A DNA stretch of 42,379 nucleotides from Nitrospirota bacterium (GTDB taxonomy: Bacteria > Nitrospirota > Thermodesulfovibrionia > Thermodesulfovibrionales > Dissulfurispiraceae): assembly GCA_004321915.1 (NCBI GenBank), contig SCQE01000004.1, forward strand, positions 1 through 42,379. The letters are read 5' to 3'. The notes beneath the pieces are model-generated. The model saw only the letters and a program-made list of their open reading frames with translations. It searched no databases and had not been told where the DNA came from. Positions 6,107 to 30,346 of the stretch are shown here, one piece after another (within the stretch, counting starts at the first letter, position 1; every line of letters starts with the position of its first letter). A program made the translations under genes and the position numbers.

Positions 6107-6937
6107 ATGAAGAAGCTGTCAATATGTGTCGTCTTTGCCATGCATATGTTCCTGTCCTCCGCTTTCGCGGCGTCAGAGACTTCCCTGCTCACCTTCGGCG
6201 TTTATCCTTATGACACGCCGACGCAGATATATCAGAACTTCGAGCCCCTGATGAAATACCTCTCAAAAAAGATCGGCATCCCGGTCAGGCTTGTCATAGC
6301 GCCGAATTACATGTCGCATATTATCAATATCGGCGAAGGGAGGGTTGATCTCGGCTTCATGGGCCCGTCGCCATATATCAGGGCGAAAGACAAATACGGC
6401 AGCGTTGAGCTGCTTGCAAGGCTCATGATGAGGGACAACAAGAACGACCGGCTCGTTGTCATATCTCATAAACAAAATGGGATCAATGCGCTGAAAGACC
6501 TGAAGGGCAAGACCTTTGCCTTCGGCGATTATCAGTCTTACGGCAGCCATTTCTACCCCCGCTTTCTCCTGAATAAGAATGGCGTCAGACTGAACGACAT
6601 GAAGTCCTATGATTTCCTCGGCAGCCATTCAAAAGTGCTCCTCGCCGTATCGCATAAAGACTTTGACGCAGGCGGGGTGAGGGAAGACATCTACGAAAAA
6701 TATCGCGACAGGCCGGTGAAGGTCATCGCAGGGCCGTTCACAATACCGCCCCATGTGATTGTCTGCAGAAAAGACCTGCCTGCTCCGATAAAAGCAAAGG
6801 CAAAGGCGTTATTGATTGAGCTTCAGGATAAAGGCATTCTTCAGGCCATTGATCCCGCGCTTGAACGGTTCGGTCCTGTGCGAGACGGGGATTTTAGGCA
6901 GGCCCGTGAAGTGGTCGATTTCATTGAGGGCAGGTAA
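6107..6937 (+). CDS. PhnD-type periplasmic oxyanion-binding protein
   Basis: 276 residues. A signal peptide (MKKLSICVVFAMHMFLSSAFA) is followed by a single PhnD/phosphonate-binding fold: LTFGVYPYDTP, LGFMGPSPYIRA, LKGKTFAFGDYQSYGSHFYPR, FDAGGVREDIY. Such proteins feed a membrane kinase with ligand information in arsenite-sensing sets (AioX/ArxX), and here the gene lies six bases before a histidine kinase, with no ABC permease or ATPase nearby. A sensory role is therefore more likely than uptake. The mature protein has only one Cys, so an AioX-like Cys-dependent As(III) site is not obvious. The ligand could be arsenate, phosphite or another oxyanion. Confidence 0.85.
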   Translation: MKKLSICVVFAMHMFLSSAFAASETSLLTFGVYPYDTPTQIYQNFEPLMKYLSKKIGIPVRLVIAPNYMSHIINIGEGRVDLGFMGPSPYIRAKDKYGSVELLARLMMRDNKNDRLVVISHKQNGINALKDLKGKTFAFGDYQSYGSHFYPRFLLNKNGVRLNDMKSYDFLGSHSKVLLAVSHKDFDAGGVREDIYEKYRDRPVKVIAGPFTIPPHVIVCRKDLPAPIKAKAKALLIELQDKGILQAIDPALERFGPVRDGDFRQAREVVDFIEGR

Positions 6938-6943
6938 GCGGCC

Positions 6944-8665
6944 ATGAGCCTGAAGAGGGATTTCTATGTCCGCATGAGCCTCATACTCACGCTGTCCGCC
7001 ATAATCATCATCTCGGTGGTAATCAGGAAACAGAGGGAGCTCCTTCTTGAGGACATGAGAGACAAGGGCGAATCCATAGCAAGAGTCTTGTCAACGGTGA
7101 CTATGGACTCTATGCTCACCTACGACTACGGGACAATGGAGCGCTATGTCAGGCAGGTCGCGGAGAACAAGGACATTGTGTTCCTCAAGATTATCCGTTC
7201 CGATGGAGAGGTGCTGGCCGAAGCAAAAGGAACAAACAACAATAAAAACATCTTTCTCAGCGTCTATCCCATAGCGGTCGGCGGGTCAACGCTCGGATCG
7301 GTTGAGGTCTCTTTTTCGATGGAGCGGGTGGATGCCATATCGAGGAAGATCATAATCTCGGCCATCGCCTTTATTCTCATCGTCCATGCGATCGGGTTGG
7401 CCGTAAACAATGCTATCGTGAATTCCCTTGTCCTCCGGCCTATCAGCGCGCTTATCGAAACTACGAGGAGGATAAAGGAAGGCGGCCTGAAAGATAGTAC
7501 CGCATCGGGATCGCGCGGTGAATTCGGGGAGCTTGCGACCGCCTTTAACGATATGGCCGCTTCGCTCGACCGGAACTTTGAGGCCCTTGAGCGGAGCGGA
7601 AAAGAGGTGCAGACGGCAAAGAACAAACTTGAGGCGATAGTCCAGAGCCTTGCAGACGGCCTGTTTGTGAGCAACAGCGACGGCCTGATCGTTTCGTTCA
7701 ACCGCGCGGCAGAAGACATCTCGGGTTATACCGAACATGAGGCGCTCGGGCTGCATTGCGAAGAGGTTTTCAAGACAAGGCTCTGCGCGGATGCCTGCGC
7801 CCTGCACAATGAGGACAAGACTATACGGAACAAGGAGACCGGGATCATCACGAAGGACGGCAGGCGCAGGCTTGTGTCGGTAAGCTCCGCTATCATCAGG
7901 GACAGCGACGGCAAGTCCATAGGCGGGGTGCAGACCTTCAGGGACATCACCGATGAGAAGCAGCGGCAGGTCATGCTCTGCCAGTCCGAGAAACTTGCAG
8001 CCATAGGCCAGATGTCCGCCGGCCTTGCCCATGAAATAAACAACCCGCTCGGGAATATCTTGGGATACGCAAGGCTTCTGCTCAAAGACGATGCGCTGAC
8101 CTCCGGGCAGAGGGAAAAGATCGGGATAATAGCAGAGCAGGCAAAAAAAGGCAGCGGTGTTGTGCAGGGGCTTCTCGACTATTCGAGACAGTCAGGCGCA
8201 GTGAGGGAGGCGGTTGCGGTCAACAGGGTCATCGAGGATATCATCAGGCTTCTGCAGCCGCAGGCCGAAAAGAGCGGGACAAAAATTATCCCGGCGCTTG
8301 GTGAGCTGCCTGACATCCATGCAGATCCTAAACAGATAGAACAGGTAATATTCAATCTCGCAATGAATGCCATGCACGCGATCGGCAGGGACGGGACCAT
8401 ACGGATAGAGACAGCAAATACAGCTGCAGGTAAAGTTGAGATCAGGGTGAACGACACCGGCACCGGAATCCCGGAAGAAATCCAAGGCAGGATATTCGAT
8501 CCGTTTTTTACGACAAAGCCGGTGGGGAAAGGGACAGGCCTCGGTCTTTCGGTCTGCCTCGGCATAATCAAAGACCACGGCGGTTCGATTGATGTTGAAA
8601 GCAGCATCGGAGAAGGCGCGACCTTTATTGTGCGGCTGCCTGCAGGAGAGGAGAGACATGGCTGA
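6944..8665 (+). CDS. membrane sensor histidine kinase (HAMP-PAS-HisKA)
   Basis: 573 residues: helix 1 (about 10-27), a short periplasmic sensor, helix 2 (about 135-155), HAMP (about 160-215), PAS (about 225-340), HisKA with phospho-acceptor His363 in GLAHEINNPLG, and an ATPase domain with the N, G1 (DTGTGIP) and G2 (GKGTGLGLSV) boxes. The PAS carries a C-X8-C-X3-C cluster (272, 281, 285) that could bind metal or an iron-sulfur centre or act as a thiol switch. It lies between the binding protein and the regulator, whose start overlaps its stop by eight bases. The three probably form one oxyanion-sensing pathway. Confidence 0.9.
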   Translation: MSLKRDFYVRMSLILTLSAIIIISVVIRKQRELLLEDMRDKGESIARVLSTVTMDSMLTYDYGTMERYVRQVAENKDIVFLKIIRSDGEVLAEAKGTNNNKNIFLSVYPIAVGGSTLGSVEVSFSMERVDAISRKIIISAIAFILIVHAIGLAVNNAIVNSLVLRPISALIETTRRIKEGGLKDSTASGSRGEFGELATAFNDMAASLDRNFEALERSGKEVQTAKNKLEAIVQSLADGLFVSNSDGLIVSFNRAAEDISGYTEHEALGLHCEEVFKTRLCADACALHNEDKTIRNKETGIITKDGRRRLVSVSSAIIRDSDGKSIGGVQTFRDITDEKQRQVMLCQSEKLAAIGQMSAGLAHEINNPLGNILGYARLLLKDDALTSGQREKIGIIAEQAKKGSGVVQGLLDYSRQSGAVREAVAVNRVIEDIIRLLQPQAEKSGTKIIPALGELPDIHADPKQIEQVIFNLAMNAMHAIGRDGTIRIETANTAAGKVEIRVNDTGTGIPEEIQGRIFDPFFTTKPVGKGTGLGLSVCLGIIKDHGGSIDVESSIGEGATFIVRLPAGEERHG

Positions 8666-9995
8666 GATACTCGTTGTTGACGATGATTTGAGGATGCGGC
8701 AGTTGATCGAAGAACTGATGAGGGCCGAGGGGCACACTGTATTTTCAACAGGCGACAGCAGAGACGCGCTGCTTTTGTTGAAAGAGAGGTCGTACGATGT
8801 CGTCATTACAGACCTCAAGATGCCGCATGTCGGCGGGCTTGAGGTTTTGTCCTATGCCAAAGAAGCGGACCCGGGCGCGCTGGTGATCATGGTCACTGCC
8901 CACGGCACGGTTGAATCCGCAATAGAGGCGATCAGGAAAGGGGCTTACGACTATATCCAGAAGCCTTTTGAGCCGGACCATCTACTACTGCTTGTTGAGC
9001 GCAGCCTTGAACACAGCAAGCTGCTGAAAGAAAACAAGAGGCTGTCGGCAGAGGTTATGAGTTTCAGGGAGGACGATCTTATCGGCTCAAGCCGCGGGAT
9101 GACGGCGGTCAGGGACATGATCGAAAAGGTTGCGCCCCTCGATACGACCGTGCTGATTCAGGGGGAAACAGGCACAGGCAAAGAACTGATCGCGCGGCTG
9201 CTCCACAGGCGGAGCGCCCGGTCAGGCAATGTCTTTCTGCCGCTCAATTGCGGGGCGCTTTCAGAGACGCTGCTTGAGTCCGAGCTTTTCGGCCATGAAA
9301 AGGGGGCCTTTACCGGCGCCTTGCACGAAAAAAAAGGCGTTTTCGAGACTGCAAACGGCGGCACAATATTTCTCGATGAGATCAATGCCACATCTCCCGC
9401 AATGCAGGTGAAGCTCCTGCGCGTGCTTCAGGAGCAGACGATCATGAGGGTCGGCTCAGCCAAGCCTGTATCCGTAAATGTCAGGGTACTGGCGGCCTCC
9501 AATGCCAACCTTTCGGATGAAGTCTCGGCCGGCAGATTCAGGAAAGACCTCTTCTACCGTCTGAACGTCGTTGTTGTGAACATCCCCTCGCTCAGGGAGA
9601 GAAAAGACGACATCCCCTTGCTCGCATATCACTTCCTGAACAAATACAGCAGAAAATTCGACAAGGATATTGCCTCCTTCTCGCCTGAAGTTCTCGAGAT
9701 ATCCCTCTCCCATCAGTGGCCGGGGAATGTCCGGGAGCTCGAAAACGTCATAGAGCGGGCTGTCATCATGGAGCCGTCATCCGAAATCAATGCCGCATCT
9801 CTCCCCCCTGAAATACGAAAGTCGCCCTTCGATCCTCTTTCACATACCGGACTGATGACCCTTGAGGAGATGGAGAAGTTCCTCATACAGAGGACGCTGA
9901 GAATTCTCGACGGCCAGAAGAACAAAGCGGCAGAGGCCCTCGGCATCGATGTCACCACCCTCTGGAGAAAGCTGAAAAAGTATGGTCTCGAATAG
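8658..9995 (+). CDS. NtrC-type sigma-54 response regulator
   Basis: 445 residues. A receiver domain (phospho-acceptor Asp52 in VVITDLKMP) is followed by an AAA+ sigma-54 activator domain with Walker A GETGTGKE, the sigma-54 loop GAFTGA and Walker [10 protein letters not shown], then a C-terminal Fis-type helix-turn-helix (KNKAAEALGIDVTTLWRKLKKYG). It should activate sigma-54 promoters when phosphorylated by the kinase encoded just upstream. ATG 8658 overlaps the kinase stop, so I prefer it to the earlier in-frame start at 8589, which would add 23 residues with no domain. Confidence 0.93.
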   Translation: MAEILVVDDDLRMRQLIEELMRAEGHTVFSTGDSRDALLLLKERSYDVVITDLKMPHVGGLEVLSYAKEADPGALVIMVTAHGTVESAIEAIRKGAYDYIQKPFEPDHLLLLVERSLEHSKLLKENKRLSAEVMSFREDDLIGSSRGMTAVRDMIEKVAPLDTTVLIQGETGTGKELIARLLHRRSARSGNVFLPLNCGALSETLLESELFGHEKGAFTGALHEKKGVFETANGGTIFLDEINATSPAMQVKLLRVLQEQTIMRVGSAKPVSVNVRVLAASNANLSDEVSAGRFRKDLFYRLNVVVVNIPSLRERKDDIPLLAYHFLNKYSRKFDKDIASFSPEVLEISLSHQWPGNVRELENVIERAVIMEPSSEINAASLPPEIRKSPFDPLSHTGLMTLEEMEKFLIQRTLRILDGQKNKAAEALGIDVTTLWRKLKKYGLE

Positions 9996-13554: not shown

Positions 13555-13569
13555 TGGCACGAGTATTGA
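13555..13569 (+). promoter_or_regulatory. sigma-54-like promoter before the rhodanese gene
   Basis: TGGCAC-GAGTA-TTGA has a perfect -24 element and correct spacing, but the -12 element reads TTGA instead of TTGC. It ends 35 bp before ATG 13605. Two sigma-54 activators are encoded in this window, so use is plausible, although the -12 mismatch weakens the call. Confidence 0.35.
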
Positions 13570-13604
13570 TATATCCTTCTACAAAAAAAGGAGGAAGCGG
13601 GATT

Positions 13605-14963
13605 ATGAGAAGATATTTTCTGAAGACATTGTTCATGACTCTGGTTGCGGTTTTTGTGATGGGCGGCCCTGCAGGAGCAGCAGGCAAAGAGCGCATCAGT
13701 CCTATCTGTGCCGGGTGCCACAAAAATGAGGTGGATACCATACGGGGGCTGGTGAAATCCGGGTCACAGGGCGAAGACTCGTTTGTTGTTCAGGCCGGCA
13801 AGGATGTCTGGAATGTGCGCTATGACAAGGGCACTAAACTCAATAAGTTTGAATCCGTGAGACAGCTCGGCAATGAAGAGGCGGTGCTGGTCAAGGTCCG
13901 CGAGAAAGACGGTACGGTCTATGCCGAAGCGATTAGCTACAAGCCCAACTATGACTTCATATCCGCTGATATGGTCATTGAACTCGATGAACTGGCAGCG
14001 CTTCTGAAGAAAGACCCGCAGCAGGCCAACTATGCTGTTTTCGACGTGCGCGGTGTTGCCGACTATCAGGAGGGGCATCTGCCCGGAGCGATCACCTTCC
14101 CCTTTTACAGGTTCAACCATTTCAAGGACAGGCTGCCGAAAGATAAAAATACTACGATTATAACTTACTGCAACAGCTATGGCTGAGGCATGAGCCCCCA
14201 CTTTGCCCGTGTGGCAAAAGAGGTATATGGCTACAAGAACGTGAAGTTTTTTTACGCAGGCTTTCCCACATGGCAGCAGACAGGCCATCCTGTATTGACC
14301 GAACCGGAATTTTTGAAATTCCTTGCGGACAAGGGAGGCTCATACATTCTTGTTGATCTCAGGGAACATGAGAAGGCAAAAAAGGAGCATATCAAAAATG
14401 CTGTCAACTTTCCGGTAACGAAACTCGAAGAGCTTTCAGCCGCCCTTCCTTCAGACAAAAAGAAGACCCGCATCATCTTCTATTCCGACAACGCTGCCGA
14501 GGCTGAACTGGCACACAGGACGCTGCGGATCAACGGCTACGACAACGGCTATATCCTTAACGGCGGCCTTGCCGAATGGAAGGCCAAGGGCTATCCGACG
14601 GAAAAGAACGCCCTTCTCGGCAAGATCGAGTATAAGCATAAGCCGCTGCCCGGCACGCTCAGGGTGGAGGAGTTCGACTCGATCGTAAAGAACAAGCCTG
14701 CAGACAAGTTGGTCCTCGATGTCCGCAGCGCGGGTGAAGTCATCAGGAGCAGAATACGGGGTACGGTCATTATCCCGATAGACACCCTTGACATGCGCTG
14801 GTCCGAGCTGCCGAAGGACAAGGAGATCATTGTTCACTGCCAAGCAGGCAACAGGGCGCGCATGGCTTATGAAATACTTGCGGACAAGGGATACAGCATC
14901 AGGTATCTCAATGCGAACTTCAAATGGAATGCTGACGGGAGTTATAAGGCCATTGAGCGGTAA
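13605..14963 (+). CDS. exported triple-rhodanese with CXXCH motif and in-frame UGA (probable selenocysteine)
   Basis: 452 residues if TGA at 14184-14186 is read as selenocysteine 194. A signal peptide (about 1-26) leads to CAGCH (35-39), a possible single c-heme site, and a linker domain to about 120. Rhodanese domain 1 (about 124-230) has DVRGVADYQEGHLPGA and the loop YCNSYG-U-GMS, with the TGA exactly where the catalytic Cys belongs. Domain 2 (about 232-335) has FYSDNAAEAE and no Cys, so it is probably structural. Domain 3 (about 350-445) has HCQAGNRA with Cys412. The frame is unbroken on both sides of the TGA and the flanks align as one rhodanese domain. AAGGAGG at 13588-13594 supports ATG 13605. 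A nonsense mutation, or two separate proteins (second start ATG 14190), are the alternatives. It is followed by a beta-propeller gene 28 bp on. Confidence 0.8.
14184..14220 (+). promoter_or_regulatory. candidate bacterial SECIS element
   Basis: UGA at 14184-14186 is followed by a hairpin: CTTTGCC (14201-14207) pairs with GGCAAAAG (14213-14220) with one bulged A, giving a 7-bp stem around the loop CGTGT (14208-14212). There are 21 bases from UGA to the loop, and G is the second loop base. Both fit the published bacterial SECIS rules (16-37 bases, G in the first two loop positions). Confidence 0.65.
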
Positions 14964-14991: not shown

Positions 14992-16206
14992 ATGAAAAAA
15001 ATATTGCGGTATCTGGTAATTGCCTTGATTGTAGCTGGACTGAGTTCTGTTGTTTATGCAGCAGTGTCTAAATGGATATTTGTCCCGAATGCGGCATCAA
15101 AGACACTGTCTTTCATCGATCCGCAGAAGGACATGGTCATCGGTCATTGCGATACCGGCGCTACCGGATGGCTTGCTTGTCTTACGCCGGACCTGAAAAA
15201 GATATATGTAGGTGAAAACGGCGGTGATTCGGTCACTGTTATTGACGCAGTCACGCACAAAACCCTGAAGCATATCAAGACAGGAAAGAACCCCAAACAC
15301 CCCCTTGTTACGCCTGACGGAAAGTATGTGCTTGTCAATCACACAGGAGAGGTGAAGGCGGTCCTCCTTGACGCTAGGACAGACAAGGAACTGAAGACCT
15401 TTGCCGTTGATCATGGCAATAAGGCACAGAAAGGCCCGCTGATGATGCACTCGGCCTTTACATGGGACAGTAAGTACGCTTTTGTCCAGAACTATGCCGA
15501 CAAAAAGGTATATGTTCTTAAAATTCCTTCACTCGAAGTAGTTGCGACGATTGACGGGGACAGCCCGGCGCATTACATTGTGCCTACCCCTGACAACAAG
15601 CAGGCATGGATAGTTCTTGAAGGCAACGACGCTGCAAAGATAAAACCTTCCGTATCGATTATTGATATGGCGACATTTAATGAGGTGAAGAAGATCGAAA
15701 TTCCGACAGCCGAAGGCGAGCCTATCGAAGGTCATCACGGGATTTTTACACTTGATGGAAAGAACTTCTTCTTCTGCAACCGGGGGCCCGGGCCCAAGTT
15801 CGGCGGAACGACTGTGGCAATGATAGACGTTGCTAAACAGAAGATTGTGAGAACACTTAAGGGCGCCAATAGCGTCGGTCACCCATATCTTACTCCTGAC
15901 GGCAAGTATGTTGTACTTACTCCCTACGGCGGGTCTAATATCATAACCTTTGTTGATGCACGGACCGGGCTCAGACTGAAAGATGTCGCAATTGGCAATG
16001 GAACTCATATCGGTCATATGGTCTTTAGTGCAGACAGCAAGAAGGCATATGCCACCAATGCAGGCGACGGCGCGGTTTATGTGATAGACATGCAGACCCG
16101 CGAGGTCGTGAAGGGCATACCCACAGGGGACAAAGCAGCCCAGATAATAAACACTTATACCAACCTCTTCGAAGTGCCGGGAGTGTATAAGTTGCACAGT
16201 CATTAA
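14992..16206 (+). CDS. exported YVTN-repeat beta-propeller protein
   Basis: 404 residues. A signal peptide or anchor (MKKILRYLVIALIVAGLSSVVYA) is followed by about seven beta-propeller blades of the YVTN type: repeated pairs such as KIYVGENGGDSVTVIDAVT, KYVLVNHTGEVKAVLLDA, KYVVLTPYGGSNIITFVDA and KAYATNAGDGAVYVIDM. Conserved GHHG (in EGHHGIFTLDG) and FFFCNRGPG motifs recur in the second propeller at 16717, so the two are paralogs. Such proteins often bind cofactors or partner redox enzymes (NirF-like), but the activity is unknown. GGAGG at 14983-14987 supports ATG 14992; an upstream start would overlap the rhodanese gene. A strong terminator follows. Confidence 0.85.
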   Translation: MKKILRYLVIALIVAGLSSVVYAAVSKWIFVPNAASKTLSFIDPQKDMVIGHCDTGATGWLACLTPDLKKIYVGENGGDSVTVIDAVTHKTLKHIKTGKNPKHPLVTPDGKYVLVNHTGEVKAVLLDARTDKELKTFAVDHGNKAQKGPLMMHSAFTWDSKYAFVQNYADKKVYVLKIPSLEVVATIDGDSPAHYIVPTPDNKQAWIVLEGNDAAKIKPSVSIIDMATFNEVKKIEIPTAEGEPIEGHHGIFTLDGKNFFFCNRGPGPKFGGTTVAMIDVAKQKIVRTLKGANSVGHPYLTPDGKYVVLTPYGGSNIITFVDARTGLRLKDVAIGNGTHIGHMVFSADSKKAYATNAGDGAVYVIDMQTREVVKGIPTGDKAAQIINTYTNLFEVPGVYKLHSH

Positions 16207-16388: not shown

Positions 16389-16689
16389 ATGTTAGTTCTT
16401 AGTATCTCTGTATCAGGGATTTGCTTGCTCGTCGTGGGGATCGGCATTCTCGCTATTATGCTTATATCCAGTAATGAGCGGACGAGGGGGATCTGCTTGA
16501 GACGGGCGGTCGGCGCGCTGAAGAGAGACCTTTTGCTTCAGTTCATTGTGGAACCCCTGACCTTGAGCGTAGCGGTAGCTTGGTCGGAAGAATTCTCTGT
16601 ATTGTTTTTTTCTCTCGGAGCAGCTCGGCGTTTACCCTGCGGCCAAGGCAGCAGGGCTTGACCCGATAGAGGCCTTGAAGGCAGAATAA
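16389..16689 (+). pseudogene. remnant of a MacB-type ABC permease
   Basis: The open frame 16389-16661 starts as the C-terminal FtsX domain of a MacB permease (SGICLLVVGIGILAIMLISSNERTRGICLRRAVGALKRDLLLQ is the region, about residues 9-52). It loses similarity near 16575. The family's last residues, GVYPAAKAAGLDPIEALKAE, appear in a different frame at 16627-16686 with stop TAA 16687-16689. An internal deletion of about one helix with a frameshift best explains this. The N-terminal two thirds are absent and a repeat abuts the left side. Confidence 0.75.
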
Positions 16690-16716: not shown

Positions 16717-17877
16717 ATGAAAAAGTCAGCGGCTTTATTCGTTGTGTTTTTGTGGTCCTTGTTTTTCAGCAATATGGTTTGGGCTTCAGAACGAACAGCC
16801 TTTGTTTCGAGCGAAGGTGACAACAGCGTAGCTGTCATAGACCTGATCTCTGAAAAAGTGATAAAGACTCTGCCTACAGGAGCGGTCCCTCATGCAATGG
16901 CGACAACGCCGGGCGGCCGTATTTATGTGAACAACCGTGGAAGCAAAGACCTTACAGTTATACAAGCCGACAGCTGGACAGTAGCAAAGACCATCGCCCT
17001 GCCTGCGACTTCATTTCAACTCGCTATATCACCGGACGGAAAGACGCTGGCCGTTGCTTATAAGGACGCCCTGAAGTTGTCGCTTATCGACACGGCAAGC
17101 GATAAGATTATCAGCACGATCGACCTCGGCAAGGTGGCGGGTGAGTTTAAAGCTCCAATGGTGAAACACCCGTATTGGAGTCCGGACGGAAAGTTCGTCT
17201 ATGCTCCCGACTCGGTTAACGGCGCTATCGTCAAGGTCAATATCTCACAAAGCAGCATTGAGAAAGTTATCACGCTTCAGGGAGGCAGTCATTATCTGCA
17301 TCCTTCACCCGACGGCAAAATCCTCTATTCCATCAACGAAAAGACCAAAGGCGGCACCAGCCTGACCCTTATTGATGCCGGTACAGATACTATTATCAAG
17401 GATATGCCTTTCCCTCTTGCTGAAGGTGAAAAAGGGTTAGGCCATCACGGCGCATTCAGTCCTGACAACCGCTATTTCTTCTTCTGCAATGAGGGCGGCT
17501 CACATATTGCGGTTCTGGATACGGGAAAGAGGGAGTGGATCAAGACGATAAAGACCGGCAAGGGCCCCGGGCATCCGTCCCTCTCCCGCGACGGAAAGTA
17601 TTTCTTCGTCGTGCATCATAATGACGGGGTAATTTCTGTGATAGACATAGCAAAACAGGAAAACATAAAAAATATCCGCATCGGCAATGGGACCAAGCAG
17701 GCGCATGCCTCCTATTTTACGCCGGACGGCAAGTTCTTCTATGCAGTGGCTTCCGATGACAAGAAGCTGGCAAAGGTCGATGCAGGCAAGATGGAGTTTG
17801 TCTCAAAGATTGATGTGCCGGCAAAGGTGATGTTCTTCGGAATCAAAGAGGGCAGGGAATTTCCGGGCACTGAATAG
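16717..17877 (+). CDS. exported YVTN-repeat beta-propeller protein, second copy
   Basis: 386 residues. A signal peptide (MKKSAALFVVFLWSLFFSNMVWA) is followed by about seven blades, with NSVAVIDLISEKVIKTLPTG, TSLTLIDAGTDTI and GVISVIDIAKQENI as recurring strands. It shares GHHGAFSPDNRYFFFCNEGG and SRDGKYFFVVHHNDG with the propeller at 14992, so the pair probably arose by duplication. GGGGAGG lies just before ATG 16717. Its own leader follows the decayed permease, so its promoter is unclear. The ligand is unknown; His- and Cys-bearing loops could serve metal or heme. Confidence 0.85.
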   Translation: MKKSAALFVVFLWSLFFSNMVWASERTAFVSSEGDNSVAVIDLISEKVIKTLPTGAVPHAMATTPGGRIYVNNRGSKDLTVIQADSWTVAKTIALPATSFQLAISPDGKTLAVAYKDALKLSLIDTASDKIISTIDLGKVAGEFKAPMVKHPYWSPDGKFVYAPDSVNGAIVKVNISQSSIEKVITLQGGSHYLHPSPDGKILYSINEKTKGGTSLTLIDAGTDTIIKDMPFPLAEGEKGLGHHGAFSPDNRYFFFCNEGGSHIAVLDTGKREWIKTIKTGKGPGHPSLSRDGKYFFVVHHNDGVISVIDIAKQENIKNIRIGNGTKQAHASYFTPDGKFFYAVASDDKKLAKVDAGKMEFVSKIDVPAKVMFFGIKEGREFPGTE

Positions 17878-18639: not shown

Positions 18640-18731
18640 CCGGAGTGTTATGCCCTCAGCTTGCGGCCCGACCGCTGAACTCTTATTTGCAATGTCGGAC
18701 AGGACTGATTTAAACTTTGTTCGTGACGGGC

Positions 18732-20432
18732 ATGATTAAAAAGGTCAATGTAATTTTCCCTTTTGTTGCTCTAATGGCAGGTCTTCTTTTTCCTGTTTCA
18801 TCTTACTCACAACAAAACACGCCTGTTAAAATCGGCGTCGCCTCTATGATAACCCCTGTCGATGCGGTCAAATATTATCAGGAGATTATCGATTATGTGG
18901 GCGAGCAGATAAAGCAACCCGTGCAGATGGTGCATAGGCGGACTTATGAAGAGATGGACTCGCTGCTCGAAACAGGCAGCGTCAAAGTTGCGTTTATCTG
19001 CTCTGCGCCGTATGTTAAGAACCGCGAGCAGTTCGGGATAGAGCTTATCGCGGCCCCCAGTGTCAACGGCAAGGCCGAATACCATTCCTACATCATCGTC
19101 CATAAAGACAGCCCTATGGGATCTTTTCAGGAATTAAAGGGGAAGACCTTTGCCTTTACCGACCCGAAATCAAATACCGGAAAACTTTATCCGGAATACC
19201 TGCTGAAAAAAACAGGACAATCTTCCGACAAGTTTTTTAAAAAGCACATATACAGTTACAGCCACAATAAATCCGTAGAACTGGTCGCTAAAAAGGTTGT
19301 GGACGGCGCGGCGGTCGAAAGTATAGTCTACGAATACATGCATAAGAAAGGCTCCCCCTATGCGCGGCAAACAAAGATCATTAAACGGTCCGAGTCTTTC
19401 GGCATTCCGCCGGTCGTTGTTACGAAAGACATAGACCCTGTTTTGAAGAAAAAGATAAAAGAGGCTTTTCTGAATATGCATAGGTCGGCCAAAGGCAAAC
19501 AGATACTGGGTGCGATGATGGTAGACGGTTTTGTGCAGATATCGGACAAGGCGTACGATTCGATAAGGAAAATGGAGCGGGCAGTGACAGCCGGACCGAA
19601 GGCCCTGAAGAATGAAAAGGAAAAACAGACCATATATTTCGGCGTGATCCCGAGGGACAATCCGCGCATTCTTTATGAGAAGTACCAGCCGCTGATCGAT
19701 TATCTGTCCGAAAAGACGCCGTACGCCTACGAGTTGGTCATAAAGAAAAATTATGAAGATACCGTAAATGCCATAGGCAGCAGGGAGATAGATATAGCGC
19801 TCCTCGGCCCTCTGACGTATCTTGAGGCACATTCTAAATTCGGGGCCATCAGCGTTTTAAAGCCCAAAGGGGTGGACGGCGCTGCTGTCTACAAGAGCGT
19901 TATTATCAGGAAAAAAGGCCTGCCCCTGAAAGAGATTAAAGAGTTGAAAGGCAAGAGCGTGGCTTTTGCCGCATCGAAATCCACGTCCGGGAATCTTATG
20001 GCAAGGTATCTCTTTGCCAACTCAGGCATACATTTAAGCGATCTCGGCAACTATGCGAATTTCGATTACCACGATACGGTTGTCAAGGCTGTGCTGAAAG
20101 GTCAGTACGATGCCGGCGCCGTAAGGGATTCCGTGGCCAAAAAATATATGAAGCTGGGAATAGAGGTGGTGGCCGAATCAGAACCCATTCCGGTCGGACC
20201 TATCACCATAAGTCCGGGCGCCTCTTTCTCGGCAGCGGAAAATATAAAAAAAGCGCTCCTTGAACTCGACCCTAAAAATCCGGTCCATGAGAAAATACTG
20301 AAAAGGCTCGACGACGATCTTAAAAACGGCTTTACCGAGACTTCCGACAAGGACTATGAAGGCATACGGACAAAGATAAATGCCGTGCCGCAGACCTGCG
20401 GCAGGGGCTGCCATCCCAAGATAAGACTATGA
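18732..20432 (+). CDS. tandem PhnD-type binding protein (two fused domains)
   Basis: 566 residues. A signal peptide (about 1-26, VSSYSQ) is followed by two PhnD-like periplasmic binding domains: domain 1 (about 28-290; VKIGVASMITPVDAVKYY, VAFICSAPYVK, LKGKTFAFTDPKSNTGKLYP) and domain 2 (about 300-545; IYFGVIPRDNPRILYEKYQP, IALLGPLTYLEA, LKGKSVAFAASKSTSGNL). A C-terminal CGRGCH (556-561) resembles a CX3CH heme-binding or metal motif. The kinase starts within its stop codon (ATGA), so a sensory function is likely. ATG 18732 is chosen over TTG 18717; there is no strong ribosome site for either. Confidence 0.85.
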   Translation: MIKKVNVIFPFVALMAGLLFPVSSYSQQNTPVKIGVASMITPVDAVKYYQEIIDYVGEQIKQPVQMVHRRTYEEMDSLLETGSVKVAFICSAPYVKNREQFGIELIAAPSVNGKAEYHSYIIVHKDSPMGSFQELKGKTFAFTDPKSNTGKLYPEYLLKKTGQSSDKFFKKHIYSYSHNKSVELVAKKVVDGAAVESIVYEYMHKKGSPYARQTKIIKRSESFGIPPVVVTKDIDPVLKKKIKEAFLNMHRSAKGKQILGAMMVDGFVQISDKAYDSIRKMERAVTAGPKALKNEKEKQTIYFGVIPRDNPRILYEKYQPLIDYLSEKTPYAYELVIKKNYEDTVNAIGSREIDIALLGPLTYLEAHSKFGAISVLKPKGVDGAAVYKSVIIRKKGLPLKEIKELKGKSVAFAASKSTSGNLMARYLFANSGIHLSDLGNYANFDYHDTVVKAVLKGQYDAGAVRDSVAKKYMKLGIEVVAESEPIPVGPITISPGASFSAAENIKKALLELDPKNPVHEKILKRLDDDLKNGFTETSDKDYEGIRTKINAVPQTCGRGCHPKIRL

Positions 20433-21889
20433 AGGGTTTGAGTCTTCAGACGAAATTCGTTTTAATCACCACGATTGCGATAATAGTTTTTATGTCGATC
20501 CTCGGCTATGCGTCGGTACAGAGGGAAAAAGCCATTCTGCGGGCCGAAGTCGAAAGGGAGGGCCAGCTGCTTGGAGAGACGCTCGCCATCCCGATTATTA
20601 ACGACCTCATATACGAAAGGCTGGGCCTCGTCGAAGAGGGGGGGCTTCTCGACAACTATATACTCGAAATCTTCAACAGGAGAGATGTCGATCTCTTGTA
20701 TATAGCTATTCTGGACGAAGAGGGGCGGGTAATTTCGCACAACGACATTACGGAGTATGGAAAGGTCTATGCCGATCATTTAACAAAAAAATATATCGGG
20801 TCTGACAAGACCCTTATACAACAGTTTTTGCACAAGGACCATGAAGCCCTCGATTTTGGCGTGCCTCTCTCCATAGGCAAGAAACGCTGGGGCACATTGA
20901 AGTTCGGTATTTCTCTCGAAAAGGTGGAGCGCGAAATTATCGCTACCGTAAAAAAGATCATCCTACTCACGCTGTTTTTGATAAGTTCGGGGTTTGTGAT
21001 GATCCTCTTTTTGAGCAGACGCTTTATAAGTCCCATAACGCAGCTTGCAAGCACCATGGAAAAGACGGGCGCGGATTATCTGGATGCCAAGGTCGACATA
21101 AAGGGGGATGACGAACTCGCGATGCTCGGCGAGAGGTTCAATAATATGATCGAAAGGATCAAACAGGCGAATGAGGAGATCAGAAAGACCCATGAAAAGC
21201 TTGTCCAGTCCGAAAAGCTGGCATCCATAGGAATACTTGCGTCAGGCGTGGCCCATGAAATCAACAATCCTCTCGGAGGCCTGTTCAACTGCATTCAGAT
21301 GCTCAGGCAGAACGGCGACAATCCTGAGTTCAGAGAAAAATATCTCTCACTGGTAAACGAAGGCCTCGACAGGATAGAGAATACCGTTAACAAGCTTTTG
21401 TGGATGTCGAAGAAGACGGACCACGCTCCGGTCCGGGTCAATGTGAGGGGCGCTGTCGAGAGTGTTTATTCGTTTCTGGAGTACAAATTCAAAAAAGCGG
21501 CCATAGAATTCGTCCACGAAATCCCTGCCGACCTTGTTGTAGTCGTCGATATGCACGATTTTCAGCAGATGCTGCTGAACCTGTTTATCAACGCGCTCCA
21601 TTCGATGGAGGACGGCGGGGCGCTCACGGTGCGGGGCCGCAAAGAGGGCATGACGGTCAAAATAGAGGTCATAGACAGCGGCTGCGGTATAGAGGCCGAA
21701 AATATCAACAGGATATTCGATCCGTTCTATACTACCAAACCGACTGGAGAAGGCACAGGGCTCGGTCTTTGGTTGACCTATGAGATAATCAGAAATTACA
21801 ATGGAGACATTTCGGTAAGGAGCGAGCCCGGAAAGGGGTCCGTCTTTATTGTCAGCCTCCCTGTGGACGGGATGAAAGCCGGCTTATGA
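20429..21889 (+). CDS. membrane sensor histidine kinase
   Basis: 486 residues: helix 1 (about 10-30), a roughly 140-residue periplasmic sensor with alpha/beta character (DVDLLYIAILDEEGRVISHND suggests a single Cache fold), helix 2 (about 175-196), HAMP (about 198-250), HisKA with His276 in GVAHEINNPLGG, and an ATPase domain with DSGCGIE and GEGTGLGLW. Unlike the first kinase it has no PAS domain. Start and stop both overlap neighbours by four bases (ATGA), so the binding protein, kinase and regulator are one tightly coupled unit. Confidence 0.92.
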   Translation: MKGLSLQTKFVLITTIAIIVFMSILGYASVQREKAILRAEVEREGQLLGETLAIPIINDLIYERLGLVEEGGLLDNYILEIFNRRDVDLLYIAILDEEGRVISHNDITEYGKVYADHLTKKYIGSDKTLIQQFLHKDHEALDFGVPLSIGKKRWGTLKFGISLEKVEREIIATVKKIILLTLFLISSGFVMILFLSRRFISPITQLASTMEKTGADYLDAKVDIKGDDELAMLGERFNNMIERIKQANEEIRKTHEKLVQSEKLASIGILASGVAHEINNPLGGLFNCIQMLRQNGDNPEFREKYLSLVNEGLDRIENTVNKLLWMSKKTDHAPVRVNVRGAVESVYSFLEYKFKKAAIEFVHEIPADLVVVVDMHDFQQMLLNLFINALHSMEDGGALTVRGRKEGMTVKIEVIDSGCGIEAENINRIFDPFYTTKPTGEGTGLGLWLTYEIIRNYNGDISVRSEPGKGSVFIVSLPVDGMKAGL

Positions 21890-23223
21890 AAGAAACAATA
21901 CTGCTTATAGAAGACGAAAAAATAATGAGGGTCACCATCGAGGACGCGCTGACCGCCGCTGGTTATGAGGTCTCTTCTTTTGAGACCGGCGCAGAGGCGC
22001 TGAAGGCTTTCGAAGGGGCCGACTTCAGTCTGGTAGTGACCGATGTCAGGCTTCCTGACATGAGCGGGCTCGATATACTCAGGGGCATAATGCGGATGAA
22101 TACCGCTCAGGTCATAGTGATGACCGCCTTCGGCACGATCAAGGACGCTGTTGAAGCTATGCGGCTCGGAGCGTTCGATTATATAACGAAACCTTTTTCG
22201 CTCGATGAATTTCTTCTGCTCGTCGAAAGGTCGCTTGAAGTAAAAAAACTTAAGGAAGAGAACGTCAGACTTAAAAGAGACCTTGACCGCTGCTATAACT
22301 TCCCTAACATAATCGGCAAAAGCGAAGCTATGAAAGGCGTTTTTGCCATGATAGAAAGGGTCGCTGCTTCGGACGCCACGGTCTTGATCTTGGGCGAAAG
22401 CGGTACAGGCAAGGAGCTTGTGGCTACAACTATCCATTACCAGAGCAAGAGAAAGGACAAGCCCTTGATTAAGGTCAACTGCGCGGCCCTTCCCGAAAGT
22501 CTTATAGAGAGCGAGTTGTTCGGCTATGAAAAAGGCGCTTTTACCGGCGCAATGAAAAGAAAGCCGGGGAGGTTCGAGCTTGCAAACGGCGGCACAATAT
22601 TCCTCGATGAGATAGGGGACATCCCGGTTTCCACTCAGGCGAAATTGTTGCGCTCCATACAGGAAAGAACATTCGAGAGGGTCGGAGGCGTGGAGACGAT
22701 CAATGCCGATGTCAGGGTATTGGCAGCTACCAACAAGGACCTCGAGGAAGAAGTGCGGCAAGGCGCTTTCAGGGAAGACCTTTATTACCGCCTGAATGTA
22801 ATACCCGTAACAATGCCTCCTTTACGCGAGCGCAAGGAGGACATTCCTCTTTTTATCAATTTTTTCCTTGAACGCTACTGTTCGGGAACATCTAGGAATA
22901 TACGCATTTCCAAGGAGGCCTTGGACGCCTTATTGAATTATGATTATCCGGGCAATATACGGGAACTCGAAAACATCATAGAGAGATGCGTGACGCTCTG
23001 CGCTTCCGATGTAATAGGTAAAGACGACCTGCCGCCGGGTATTTCCGCCCAAACGGGCGGCGTTAAGAAACACGCTCTTTCGGCTGTTGCGGCAGAGGCC
23101 GAACGGGAATATATTGTCAGAATACTAAAGTCGACAGGCAATAATAAAACACGCGCTGCCGAGATGCTCGGCATCAGCAGAAAGACCCTCTGGGAAAAGA
23201 TGAAAGCCTACGGGATTGAATGA
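21886..23223 (+). CDS. NtrC-type sigma-54 response regulator
   Basis: 445 residues: receiver domain with Asp53 (VVTDVRLPD), AAA+ domain with [14 protein letters not shown] and [11 protein letters not shown], and a Fis-type helix-turn-helix ([24 protein letters not shown]). It has the same architecture as the 8658-9995 regulator but clearly different sequence, so the two likely recognise different sites. It is cotranscribed with the kinase (ATGA overlap) and lies 225 bp before a strong sigma-54 promoter, a likely target. Confidence 0.93.
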
Positions 23224-26247: not shown

Positions 26248-28788
26248 ATGGAATTGAAGAGAAGAGATTTCCTGAAAGCGGGGGTGGCTGCAGGGACAGC
26301 TTTGGCAGTCAGCGGTCCGTCGCTTAACGCCTTTGCAAAGGGGCATGAGCACGCAGCCAAGGGCGCTATGGCCACAGAGGCTGGCAACTGGGTGCCAAGC
26401 ACCTGTCAGGGCTGTACTGCTTGGTGTCCTGTAGAGTTCTTTGTTCAAAAAGGCCGCGTCGTCAAGGTGCGGGGCAACCAGCTCAGCAAGGCCAATAACG
26501 GCTATTGCTGTCCTAGGGGGCACATTATGCTCCAGCAGGTCTATGATCCCGACCGGATCAAAGTGCCGATGAAGCGCACCAATCCTGAAAAAGGGCGCGG
26601 CATCGATCCTAAGTTCGTTCCTATTACATGGGATGAAGCTCTGGATACGATTGCCGATAAAATGGTAGCTTTGCGTAAAGCGGGGGAGCCCGAGAAACTG
26701 ATGTATATGCGGGGCCGTTACTCTCCCATATCCACCGAACTGCTCTATGGCACTTTGCCGAAGATATACGGCACGCCCAATTACTTCTCCCACAGCGCCA
26801 TATGCGCCGAGGCCGAGAAGATGGGGCCCGGTTATACGCAGGGTTTCTTCGGCTACCGCGATTACGATATGGCCAAGACCAACTGTCTGGTGATCTGGGG
26901 CACGGACCCGCTCAGTTCAAACCGCCAAGTCCCCAACGCCATAAACAAATTCGGCGATATTTTCGACAGAGGCACTGTAATTGCCGTTGATCCCCGACTC
27001 TCCGCATCTGCGGCCAAGGCCAATGAATGGCTCCCCATAAAACCGGGAGAGGACGGCGCCCTTGCGGCTGCAATAGCCCATGTTATCATGACCGAAGGTA
27101 TGTGGAGCAAGGAGTTCGTCGGAGACTTCAAAGACGGCAAGAACCTCTTTAAAAGCGGGGCTGCAGTTGATGAGTCTTCTTTTGCCGAGAAGCAGACACA
27201 TGGTGTGGTCAAGTGGTGGAACATAGAACTTAAGGACAAGACCCCGAAATGGGCCTCCAAGATCACCTTGATCCCGGAAAAGCAGATAGTCCGCGTGGCC
27301 CGCATCATGGGTAAGGCCGGTTCAGCCTGCGCTGTTTACATGGGGCCCGGTGTGGCCATGACACCGCGCGGCACCTATGCCTCTATGGCGGTCTACGCCT
27401 TGAACGGCATCCTCGGATCTGTCGAGACCGAAGGCGGCGTTTTTCAGAGCTCCGGCGTGCCTGTCGAGAAATTCTCCAAACCAGACAAGTTTATAGATGA
27501 AGTCGCCAAAAAGCACGGACACGGCAAGAAGATCGACGGCCGGGGCGCAAAGGACATGCCGGCCATGATGGGCGCAAAGCCCGGCAGCGGCGTGGTCACT
27601 AACAATGTGGCCAACGGTATGCTGAAAGACCCGAATGCTATCAAGATATTCCTGAGCACTTGGAGTAATTTCGTATTTTCCTGCACAGGCGCACAGCGTT
27701 GGGAAAAGGCGATGGCCAAGGTGCCGTTCTTCGTGCATATGGTCACCAATGCCTCGGAGATGACCCAGTATGCGGACATTGTTCTTCCTGCCACCTTCGC
27801 CCCTGCGGAGAAGCTCTCTATAATAACCAATATGGCAAATCTGCACGGACATATGTCCATCCAGCAGCCTGTAATAAAGCCGCTCTGGCAGACCAAGGCA
27901 GAGGAGACCGAGGTTATGTGGCTGCTGGCAGAGAAGCTGAAGGCCAAAGGGTTTGCCAACCTATACGACTACTATGCCTCTTTTGAAGACCCTGAAACCA
28001 AGAAAAAGCCTACAAACGCCGCCGAATTCTGCGAGATAACGGCAAAGATCGCGAGCCAGAAGGTATGGAACGGCAAGGAGAAGATGAAGGGCGACCAAGT
28101 TGCAGGGTGGGAGGACTTTAAGAAGAAAGGCATCTACAATTCCGAGACCTATGCCTACAAGAAGAACTGGGGCAAGTTCAAGACCGAGACCAAGAAGTTC
28201 GAGTTCTACAGCGAGACCATGAAGAAGGCCCTTGCCGAGCATGCCAAGAAGCACAATACCTCTATAGACGATATTCTTAGTGCGAGCGGTTACGAGGCGA
28301 AGGGTGAACTGGCCTTTGTTCCGCACTATGAGTCGCCCAAACGCCACGGCGACGCAAAGGAATACCCGTTTACCTTTATCGACCATAAGTCGAGGCTCAA
28401 CAGGGAAGGCAGGAGCCAGAACGCGCCGTGGTATCAGGAATTCAAGAAAGTGGATATTGGCGATGTCAGTTGGGACGACGTGGTCAAGATCAACCCGGGC
28501 GATGCCAAAAAACTCGGGATCAAGAACGGCGATACCGTCCGCCTTACATCTACGACAGGCAGCATTACCACCAAGGTCCGCCTATGGGAGGGCGTGCGTC
28601 CGGGCACGGTGGCAAAGTGTTACGGACAGGGCCACTGGGCATATGGCCGTGTGGCCGCTAAAGATTATGCCAAGGCAGAACCTCGCGGCGGCAACAATAA
28701 CGAACTGCTCGTTGACGACTATGACCGGTTGAGCGGCTCCACTGCGCGTAACGGCGGTTTCACCGGCGTGAAGATCGAGAAGGCGTAA
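26248..28788 (+). CDS. arrA: respiratory arsenate reductase catalytic subunit (ArrA type)
   Basis: 846 residues. A Tat signal (KRRDFLKAG, 4-12) marks periplasmic export. The N-terminal cluster ligands are Cys53, 56, 60 and 88, a C-X2-C-X3-C-X27-C spacing that matches ArrA. RGRY at 155-158 is the motif reported for ArrA, whereas ArxA oxidases carry GRGWG. Cys186 in SAICAEAEKMG is the likely Mo ligand. The protein would reduce arsenate to arsenite with a bis-MGD cofactor and receive electrons from ArrB. AAGGAGG before ATG 26248 is strong. Other substrates of the same branch (antimonate, selenate, polysulfide) cannot be excluded from motifs alone. The downstream genes arrB and torD form its operon, and the ars operon lies 22 kb upstream. 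Confidence 0.85.
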   Translation: MELKRRDFLKAGVAAGTALAVSGPSLNAFAKGHEHAAKGAMATEAGNWVPSTCQGCTAWCPVEFFVQKGRVVKVRGNQLSKANNGYCCPRGHIMLQQVYDPDRIKVPMKRTNPEKGRGIDPKFVPITWDEALDTIADKMVALRKAGEPEKLMYMRGRYSPISTELLYGTLPKIYGTPNYFSHSAICAEAEKMGPGYTQGFFGYRDYDMAKTNCLVIWGTDPLSSNRQVPNAINKFGDIFDRGTVIAVDPRLSASAAKANEWLPIKPGEDGALAAAIAHVIMTEGMWSKEFVGDFKDGKNLFKSGAAVDESSFAEKQTHGVVKWWNIELKDKTPKWASKITLIPEKQIVRVARIMGKAGSACAVYMGPGVAMTPRGTYASMAVYALNGILGSVETEGGVFQSSGVPVEKFSKPDKFIDEVAKKHGHGKKIDGRGAKDMPAMMGAKPGSGVVTNNVANGMLKDPNAIKIFLSTWSNFVFSCTGAQRWEKAMAKVPFFVHMVTNASEMTQYADIVLPATFAPAEKLSIITNMANLHGHMSIQQPVIKPLWQTKAEETEVMWLLAEKLKAKGFANLYDYYASFEDPETKKKPTNAAEFCEITAKIASQKVWNGKEKMKGDQVAGWEDFKKKGIYNSETYAYKKNWGKFKTETKKFEFYSETMKKALAEHAKKHNTSIDDILSASGYEAKGELAFVPHYESPKRHGDAKEYPFTFIDHKSRLNREGRSQNAPWYQEFKKVDIGDVSWDDVVKINPGDAKKLGIKNGDTVRLTSTTGSITTKVRLWEGVRPGTVAKCYGQGHWAYGRVAAKDYAKAEPRGGNNNELLVDDYDRLSGSTARNGGFTGVKIEKA

Positions 28789-28807
28789 GGAAAGGAGGAA
28801 CTATAAG

Positions 28808-29605
28808 ATGCCAAAATACGGAATGGTAATAGATTTGCAGAAGTGTGTGGGCTGCGGCGCGTGCGCCATCGCCTGCAAGACCGAAAACAATACTCAGGAC
28901 AGGGCCGACGGACAGCGCTTCAACTGGGCCGATTTTGTTTATAAGGAGGAGGGAAAGTTCCCGAACGTAAAATTCGCGGCAATGCCCGTTCTTTGCAACC
29001 ACTGCACGGACGCGCCCTGCGTCAAGGCCTGCCCTGTTAAGCCCAAGGCCATGTTCAAGACGCCGGACGGTATTACAATGCACAACGATGAACGGTGCAT
29101 AGGCTGCCAGCGATGCCAAAAGGCATGTCCTTACAGTTCCACCGATGTAGATAAGGACAAAGCTGCTTACAGTGTGCTCAGCTTCAACGCCCACGGCGGG
29201 ACGACACACCCGTTCTACAAAGACGAAAAAGAACTCATCAAAGACTGCACAGCTTCAGGGGCGCAGGTTGCCAAGGTTGCCGGCGATATGCCCCCGCACC
29301 GCACCCTCTACAAACACCCTGAATATGAGAGCGTGAGAAGGAGCGGCATAACCGAGAAGTGTATATTCTGCGAGCACCGGGTAAAGAACGGCGAACAGCC
29401 TTACTGTGTGGTTTCCTGCCCTGCTAAGGCCCGTATATTCGGCGATCTTTCCGACCCCGGCAGCGATGTCAGCAAGGCTCTCAAGGCCCATAACTCCGTG
29501 CAGCTGAAGAACAACAAGGGCGAGCTGTTGAAGGCCGGAGAAAAGGGCACAAAGCCCAATGTTTATTACATCAGAAGTTACAAGGCAGAGGCCAAAAAAG
29601 TATAA
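28808..29605 (+). CDS. arrB: four-cluster ferredoxin subunit (ArrB type)
   Basis: 265 residues without a signal peptide, probably exported with ArrA through Tat. Four cysteine groups can bind four [4Fe-4S] clusters: CVGCGACAIAC, CNHCTDAPCVKAC, CIGCQRCQKAC, and CIFCEHR… with CVVSCP. It passes electrons to ArrA. The ribosome site AAGGAGGAACT precedes ATG 28808, 19 bp after arrA. It is longer than classical ArrB (about 235), with extra sequence around the last cluster and a Lys-rich tail. Confidence 0.88.
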   Translation: MPKYGMVIDLQKCVGCGACAIACKTENNTQDRADGQRFNWADFVYKEEGKFPNVKFAAMPVLCNHCTDAPCVKACPVKPKAMFKTPDGITMHNDERCIGCQRCQKACPYSSTDVDKDKAAYSVLSFNAHGGTTHPFYKDEKELIKDCTASGAQVAKVAGDMPPHRTLYKHPEYESVRRSGITEKCIFCEHRVKNGEQPYCVVSCPAKARIFGDLSDPGSDVSKALKAHNSVQLKNNKGELLKAGEKGTKPNVYYIRSYKAEAKKV

Positions 29606-29614
29606 GTTAAAAAG

Positions 29615-29640
29615 CAGGGAGCGTCCGACGGCGCTCCCTG
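29615..29640 (+). terminator. strong hairpin between arrB and torD
   Basis: CAGGGAGCG (29615-29623) pairs with CGCTCCCTG (29632-29640), with an eight-base loop. No T-run follows, so it is more likely an mRNA-stability or attenuation element lowering torD expression than a full terminator. Confidence 0.5.
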
Positions 29641-29668
29641 TAATCTGTTCCCCGGAGGTTGTTATCTG

Positions 29669-30346
29669 ATGCAAGCGCTTTGCGAAGCGGATACGGGCAG
29701 CGCCCGGCTTGTTGAATTGGAGCGGAAAAGAGGCGATTGTTATCGCCTCTTTTCCGCATGTTTCTACTTGCCGGAAAAAAACGTTTTAAGAGAAGAAAAT
29801 GTTTTGGGCAACTTACATGCAATTTTGTGGGACATCTGTCCGGATGCATCGGTCCATGCCGGGGCCATGGATAAAGCGTTGGTAAAGCTCAGTGACGAGG
29901 ATCTTGCGGTGGAGTATGCGCGACTTTTCGTCGGCCCATTTGAATTGCAGGCCCCCCCGTACGGATCATTTTACATGGAAAACGAAAAACGCCTGATGGG
30001 AGACTCGACCATCGAGGCGGTCAGGATATATGAGGAAGAGGGCCTTGTCATAGACGGGGACTTCAAGGAACTGCCGGACCATATTACCGTTGAGCTTGAG
30101 TTTATGTACTATCTCTGCTGTAAGAAGGCCGATGCCATTACTGCAAAGGACACGGAGGCCGCCCGGAAATTCTCCACAAAGCAGCGATTTTTCCATGAAA
30201 AATTCATAAGCAAATGGGTGCCCGGCTTCTGCGAAAGAATCAAGACCTGCGCCGACAATTCCTTTTACGTCTCGCTTGCCGAATGTTTGTCGGCCTTTGT
30301 ATCGGGTTGTGCAACAAGAGATGTTCCTGAAACTTATGGAGAGTAA
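29669..30346 (+). CDS. arrD: TorD/DmsD-family molybdoenzyme chaperone
   Basis: 225 residues of an all-helical chaperone. Family motifs are CYRLFSACFYLPE, the ARLFVGPFELQAPPYGSFY region (about 90-110) and LPDHITVELEFMYYL (about 130-145). Such proteins bind the Tat leader of the reductase, insert the molybdenum cofactor and prevent early export, so ArrA is the likely client. CCGGAGG (29652-29658) precedes ATG 29669. A 16-bp perfect hairpin lies within codons 18-30. The gene is 64 bp after arrB, with a hairpin between. Confidence 0.88.
   Translation: MQALCEADTGSARLVELERKRGDCYRLFSACFYLPEKNVLREENVLGNLHAILWDICPDASVHAGAMDKALVKLSDEDLAVEYARLFVGPFELQAPPYGSFYMENEKRLMGDSTIEAVRIYEEEGLVIDGDFKELPDHITVELEFMYYLCCKKADAITAKDTEAARKFSTKQRFFHEKFISKWVPGFCERIKTCADNSFYVSLAECLSAFVSGCATRDVPETYGE
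29722..29757 (+). repeat. 16-bp perfect hairpin inside the start of torD
   Basis: 29722-29737 is the exact reverse complement of 29742-29757, with a TGTT loop. It encodes the conserved KRGDCYRLFSA stretch yet forms a very stable stem 53 bases after the start codon, which could slow ribosomes or end transcription. Confidence 0.7.

Follow-up and report, generated by a model that had tools for sequence, protein, structure and literature searches.

The reading frame at positions 13605–14963 of the window, the stretch of 42,379 nucleotides analysed here, contains a TGA codon in its interior. Does this codon end translation, or is it read as selenocysteine (Sec), and what kind of protein would the whole frame then encode? 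All coordinates are on the forward strand unless stated otherwise.

The interrupted reading frame and its homologues

Inspection of the frame showed 452 codons, open save for the single TGA at 14184–14186, as the first-pass annotation had described. The ATG at 13605 is preceded by a good ribosome site (GGAGG, 13590–13594). Upstream of the TGA, the translation aligns with the leading two-thirds of a rhodanese domain. When the TGA is translated as U, the joined protein matches the rhodanese family PF00581 three times (E 5e-44, 149 bits), with the TGA inside the first domain, which bears out the earlier proposal that both flanks belong to one rhodanese fold. Twenty-five frames in the window can be joined across a TGA, and on reading through their list this is the sole one in which both sides form one protein domain. 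Because of this, and because the TGA is conserved in dozens of homologues, its presence is not ascribed to chance.

A search of the contigs of close relatives with the single protein as query gave no matches, while a query with the alignment did. Across 150 relatives, the full-length genes with exactly one in-frame TGA number in the dozens, and a few have none. They come from Nitrospirota MAGs, Desulfarculaceae, Desulfobacterales (Desulfobacterota), Geobacterales (the order of Geomonas) and a Geothrix MAG. The first-pass annotation had proposed looking for homologues with cysteine at this position, and these exist: among the 91 non-redundant full-length members, the column of codon 194 holds TGA in 58, a cysteine codon (TGC or TGT) in 33 and no other codon. 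A remote Geomonas relative (L076/L131), in which C189 and the C/U are both lost, was excluded from this count. In this gene (L076:5953–7350, Geomonas sp. Red32), the sequence YGADSFS takes the place of the catalytic cysteine and the Sec/Cys of domain 1, and a PhsA-like molybdoenzyme adjoins.

On a quick tree, in which two long branches were flagged, there are at least eight switches between Sec and Cys. The window protein belongs to a fully supported clade of five, the remainder being one Cys form and three further Sec forms. Its closest homologue, L022, has TGC at codon 194, while L023–L025 of the same clade have TGA. The dN/dS ratio is about 0.07–0.12 on both sides of the UGA in most of the resolvable pairs, indicative of purifying selection; for the pair L058/L070 it is 0.36–0.42, meaning weaker purifying selection. 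The genome from which the window derives contains a second family member (G000:C114:33675–34997, which is L143:6661–8013, minus strand). It also has one in-frame TGA, is of the CAGPT-U-RLSP type and is located in another clade of the tree.

Were the UGA a true stop, the locus would be a pseudogene, or would encode a protein of 193 residues and a separately started one of 257 residues, beginning at the ATG at 14190. UGA does stop translation where Sec is not inserted, and this ATG is present after it. However, the ATG is not conserved, homologues having a leucine there (RLSP, ALTP), and it has no ribosome site upstream. The same TGA is found in the 58 homologues, across several phyla and alternating solely with Cys codons, and the sequence is under purifying selection on either side of it. 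In the structural model discussed below, the split would part the strand of domain 1 from its active-site helix. A true stop is thus very improbable.

The SECIS hairpin and the selenocysteine machinery

The bacterial SECIS model comprises a loop of 3–9 nt, which has a G within its opening two positions and a G or U directly after it and is located 16–37 nt from the UGA, and a minimum free energy of −7.5 kcal/mol or lower (PMC13188914). Family comparison and this model identify a candidate hairpin at 14201–14220, starting 14 nt after the UGA. Its stem is formed by 14201–14207 pairing with 14213–14220, which includes a bulged A, and its 5-nt loop, CGUGU (14208–14212), begins at a distance of 22 nt from the UGA; with a free energy of −8.4 kcal/mol, the hairpin agrees with the model in all these respects. 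Folded alone, the window hairpin is not unusual (z −0.70; P 0.51 against synonymous shuffles), and it was for this reason that the element was analysed across the family.

In the Sec genes, 6.31 of the 7 pairs are formed. Synonymous-codon shuffles, with related sequences treated as independent, give 4.64 ± 0.14 pairs, and not one of 1000 reaches the observed value. All of the inner five pairs can form in 56 of the 58 Sec genes versus 2 of the 33 Cys genes, and the loop contains GG or GU in 57 of 58 versus 4 of 33. Compensatory changes from C-G to T-A are present in the stem across the family, and in controls with slid partners the pairing falls to 2.3–3.5. The Cys genes are slightly above their own shuffles (4.67 versus 3.92 pairs), which is expected if some of the Sec losses are recent; relatedness also inflates such tests. 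In the Cys form L022 the hairpin is lost, with 1 of 7 pairs remaining. The case for the predicted SECIS element is made by the family comparison, not by the window sequence alone.

These data also bear on the possibility that the TGA is a sequencing or assembly error for a TGC or TGT cysteine codon. The assembly is a draft in 145 contigs and the nearest homologue does have TGC, but TGA recurs in independent assemblies, including those of L023–L025 from the same clade, and the window has kept a SECIS-like hairpin with G-U in the loop where L022 has lost it. An error of this kind is therefore highly unlikely.

The draft genome is 99.6% complete, and sel genes were sought in it by family search. 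Matches were obtained for selA (616 bits), selB (357 bits, over the cut-off), selD (362 bits; G000:C39:117781–118704, L017) and the selC product tRNA-Sec (71 bits), the latter also called as tRNA-SeC by ARAGORN. The Sec reading does not, then, founder on missing sel genes, a possibility the first-pass annotation had raised. The selD gene has an in-frame TGA of its own, in a CSGU motif, so SelD of this genome is itself a predicted selenoprotein. Among the relatives, selB exceeds the cut-off in 38 of 40 with a full-length Sec form and in 4 of 8 with only the TGA-free form (Fisher p=0.005, for groups compiled by hand from relatives that are not independent). The two exceptions, G023 and G097, have the Sec form and lack a selB match over the cut-off, perhaps owing to incomplete assembly.

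A genome-wide reassignment of UGA, for instance to tryptophan, would account for the open frame alone, but is extremely improbable given that the alternative residue is always Cys and never Trp, that the genome contains the Sec machinery and that only one of the 25 TGA-joined frames unites a single protein domain. As judged from the sequence comparisons, the in-frame TGA is real and almost certainly read as Sec (residue 194), and the gene very likely encodes one exported, Sec-containing protein of 452 residues. Standard annotation would split this gene and many of its relatives into two fragments, concealing a large enzyme family.

Domain structure, active-site loop and known selenocysteine rhodaneses

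The predicted protein, for which an AlphaFold model was obtained (pLDDT 85, pTM 0.77), consists of a signal peptide, a CxxCH region, a small beta-domain and three rhodanese domains. The putative signal peptide (residues 1–26, 13605–13682), recognised by eye, reads RR..K.. followed by a hydrophobic stretch and ..AGAAG, and contains a helix in the model (residues 3–18). The CxxCH motif, CAGCH (residues 35–39, 13707–13721), is invariant in alignment A1, and 83 of the 91 family members have either CxxCH or CX4CH; covalent attachment of heme at this possible site is plausible. In the model, the small amino-terminal domain consists mostly of beta structure, which sets it apart from a classical cytochrome c.

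In the first rhodanese domain of the model, a beta-strand (residues 184–188) leads into a loop (residues 189–195) that is opened by Cys189 and followed by an alpha-helix (residues 196–207). The loop sequence, Y188-C189-N-S-Y-G-U194-G-M-S, corresponds to C-x4-U-x2-S, with Sec194 five residues past Cys189. Cys189 (14169–14171) is invariant in the alignment, as is the C/U at position 194 in alignment A1. The first-pass annotation had placed the TGA at the canonical catalytic cysteine of the rhodanese fold, which is incorrect: that cysteine is Cys189, the C of YCNSYG, whereas the TGA lies at codon 194. Of the proposed Sec rhodanese, the Sec reading stands, supported by the Cys homologues, the sel genes, the SECIS element and conservation, while the replacement of the catalytic cysteine, which is invariant, does not. 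By position in the aligned sequences, Sec194 is a second residue of the active-site loop and not a substitute for the catalytic Cys, and the model suggests that the C189/Sec194 pair probably has a role in the active site.

The second rhodanese domain has a serine at the place equivalent to the cysteine (YSDN). In the third, alignment A1 and the model identify Cys412 (14838–14840, in HCQAGNR) as the active-site cysteine, between a strand (residues 407–411) and a helix (residues 416–427). This domain is nearest to the rhodanese domains of persulfide reductases, and its closest solved relative, found with Foldseek, is that of an NADH-dependent persulfide reductase (PDB entry 3nt6; 45% identity over 78 columns). 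However, the latter protein is a flavoprotein fusion, without Sec and without CxxCH.

A Sec sulfurtransferase linked to arsenic or selenium/sulfur respiration had been put forward as new in this setting. As a class, Sec rhodaneses are not new: a selenoprotein catalogue from 2026 contains five rhodanese selenoprotein forms (PMC13188914). Form 1 (PF00581, UxxS, WP_010941598.1; PMC13188914) has the rhodanese fold and a Sec followed by x-x-Ser, like the U-G-M-S described here, a comparison made by motif alone. Equally good form 1 candidates are the short one-domain Sec rhodaneses L178–L184, which share the C-x4-U motif and several of which also have the Ser of UxxS. WP_010941598.1 is presumably from Geobacter sulfurreducens, and in Geobacterales both full-length members of our family and short one-domain Sec rhodaneses are present. 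The window protein is placed among the known Sec rhodaneses because its motif is compatible with form 1 and because one-domain Sec rhodaneses with C-x4-U are found in the same taxa; the exported architecture of a CxxCH region and three rhodanese domains may be an unlisted variant. The short proteins L178–L184 are exported, occur in Nitrospirota and Geobacterales and have a hairpin-like stretch after the TGA; L180 contains two domains. Two of them, compared with the NCBIfam models, scored below all cut-offs.

The window protein does not reach the cut-off of any NCBIfam model either, and the best NCBIfam matches of 20 family members are at the domain level only. TsoB (NF045694, UxxxxU), a rhodanese/DsbD fusion, matches domain 1, and its second Sec is five positions from the first, just as Sec194 is from C189. 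However, TsoB has two Sec residues, the DsbD-like fusion and no triple rhodanese, whereas the window protein has one Sec and, at 85.5 bits, stays below the cut-off of 805. The Sec rhodanese rhodanese_LYCAU (NF041203, CxU; 88.2 bits against a cut-off of 115) has its Sec, by motif, at another place in the loop, and the same is true of the catalogued forms 2–4 (UxxG, CxU). ExtH (NF040901), from the Geobacter selenite/tellurite operon, is rhodanese-like, of similar length and linked to extracellular chalcogen reduction, but the window protein matches it weakly (E 0.1; 11.5 bits against a cut-off of 200) and its gene neighbours are different.

Gene neighbourhood and possible function

Upstream of the rhodanese gene, domain matches and synteny identify a set of three sensor genes: a PhnD-type periplasmic binding protein (6107–6937; PF12974, and TIGR01098 over its cut-off), a sensor histidine kinase (6944–8665; PF02518, PF00512, HAMP and PAS) and a sigma-54-dependent response regulator (8667–9995; PF00158, PF00072 and HTH_8). 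In the window, a MacB-type transporter sits between the regulator and the rhodanese gene. The closest relatives, L140, L141 and L142, combine the rhodanese gene with the binding protein, the kinase and the regulator (where called), and kinase and regulator neighbours recur across the wider family. A sigma-54-type promoter sequence, TGGCACGAGTATTGAT, is located at 13555–13570, 50 nt before the ATG, and agrees with the consensus at 11 of 12 positions; comparable sites are present in the relatives L025 (49 nt upstream of the ATG) and L023 (51 nt). High sigma-54 scores are found mainly upstream of members that lie beside sigma-54 regulators, and on this sequence evidence the gene is likely to be under sigma-54 control. 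Together, the linked sensor genes and the sigma-54 sites suggest expression regulated by a periplasmic ligand. Good sigma-54 matches are also present upstream of the rhodanese genes L058, L062, L066, L068–L071, L073 and L077.

Downstream of the rhodanese gene in L141, an MST-like rhodanese, a TsuA/YedE-like transporter and a TusA-like protein are encoded, and the Geobacterales members L076 and L196 adjoin a PhsA-like molybdoenzyme. These neighbours are suggestive of sulfur compounds. The first-pass annotation had linked the sulfurtransferase to arsenic or selenium/sulfur respiration. The window does contain ArrA-like genes, some 12 kb downstream of the rhodanese gene and, at 1056 bits, short of the ArrA cut-off of 1600, but this is proximity only: no conserved linkage of such genes with the rhodanese was found in the relatives, the conserved partners being the PhnD-type sensor, the kinase and the sigma-54 regulator and, in some lineages, sulfur genes. 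The arsenic link was not adopted.

A mechanism may be proposed as follows. The three products of the linked sensor set (binding protein, kinase and regulator) would probably switch on the gene via the promoter at 13555–13570, and SelB and tRNA-Sec, directed by the SECIS hairpin, would decode the UGA as Sec. In the periplasm, C189 would form a persulfide with sulfane sulfur drawn from thiosulfate, polysulfide or elemental sulfur, and possibly from selenium or arsenic-sulfur compounds. The selenolate of Sec194 would then attack the persulfide on C189, with the sulfur leaving as sulfide or passing to domain 3. The resulting C189-S-Se-Sec194 bond would be reopened by a reductant, possibly with electrons passing through a heme at the CxxCH motif.

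A different possibility is that the Sec reading is right and the protein serves in thiol-selenol redox chemistry or metalloid binding instead of sulfur transfer, with C189 and Sec194 acting as a reductase couple or trapping a metal(loid), controlled by an oxyanion sensor. Both the window and L142 have an ArsP_1-type permease, the PhnD-type sensor and the kinase in the neighbourhood of the gene, ArrA-like genes are near, and some selenoproteins have been proposed as metal(loid) ligands (PMC13188914). This explanation is possible but doubtful, since C189 and C412 keep rhodanese active-site positions and since sulfur genes lie beside the relatives L141, L076 and L196. The protein is most likely a regulated periplasmic Sec enzyme acting on sulfane sulfur or related chalcogens. 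That its task is sulfane-sulfur transfer or reduction has about an even chance of being correct, and an electron flow linked to heme is a tentative suggestion.

The most far-reaching interpretation is of a widespread unnamed selenoprotein family of sulfur- and metal-respiring bacteria (exported, with CxxCH, triple rhodanese and C-x4-U, and often under sigma-54 three-component control) that would act as a Sec-dependent periplasmic reductase of sulfane sulfur, or of selenium or arsenic-sulfur compounds. Sec would resolve the persulfide, and electrons would arrive via a covalent heme; it is unlikely that all of these elements hold together. The hosts of the family are anaerobes that drive the cycling of sulfur, arsenic and metals. 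One exported protein joins rhodanese and selenium chemistry, perhaps with that of heme, and the natural Sec and Cys versions in close relatives make it a good system for finding out what selenium adds to sulfur-transfer chemistry.

Several other genes of the window may be described briefly. At 18717–23223 and 26248–30346, a fused double PhnD-type binding protein, a histidine kinase and a sigma-54 regulator are located upstream of ArrA/ArrB-like and TorD-like genes; their substrate is uncertain, the ArrA-like scores being below the cut-off. Directly downstream of the rhodanese gene, two exported YVTN/cytochrome-D1-like beta-propeller proteins are encoded (14992–16206 and 16717–17877), but in the synteny comparison they do not recur at this place in three or more loci. 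Between them, 16389–16661 encodes a 90-residue fragment of an FtsX/MacB permease and is probably the remnant of a gene.
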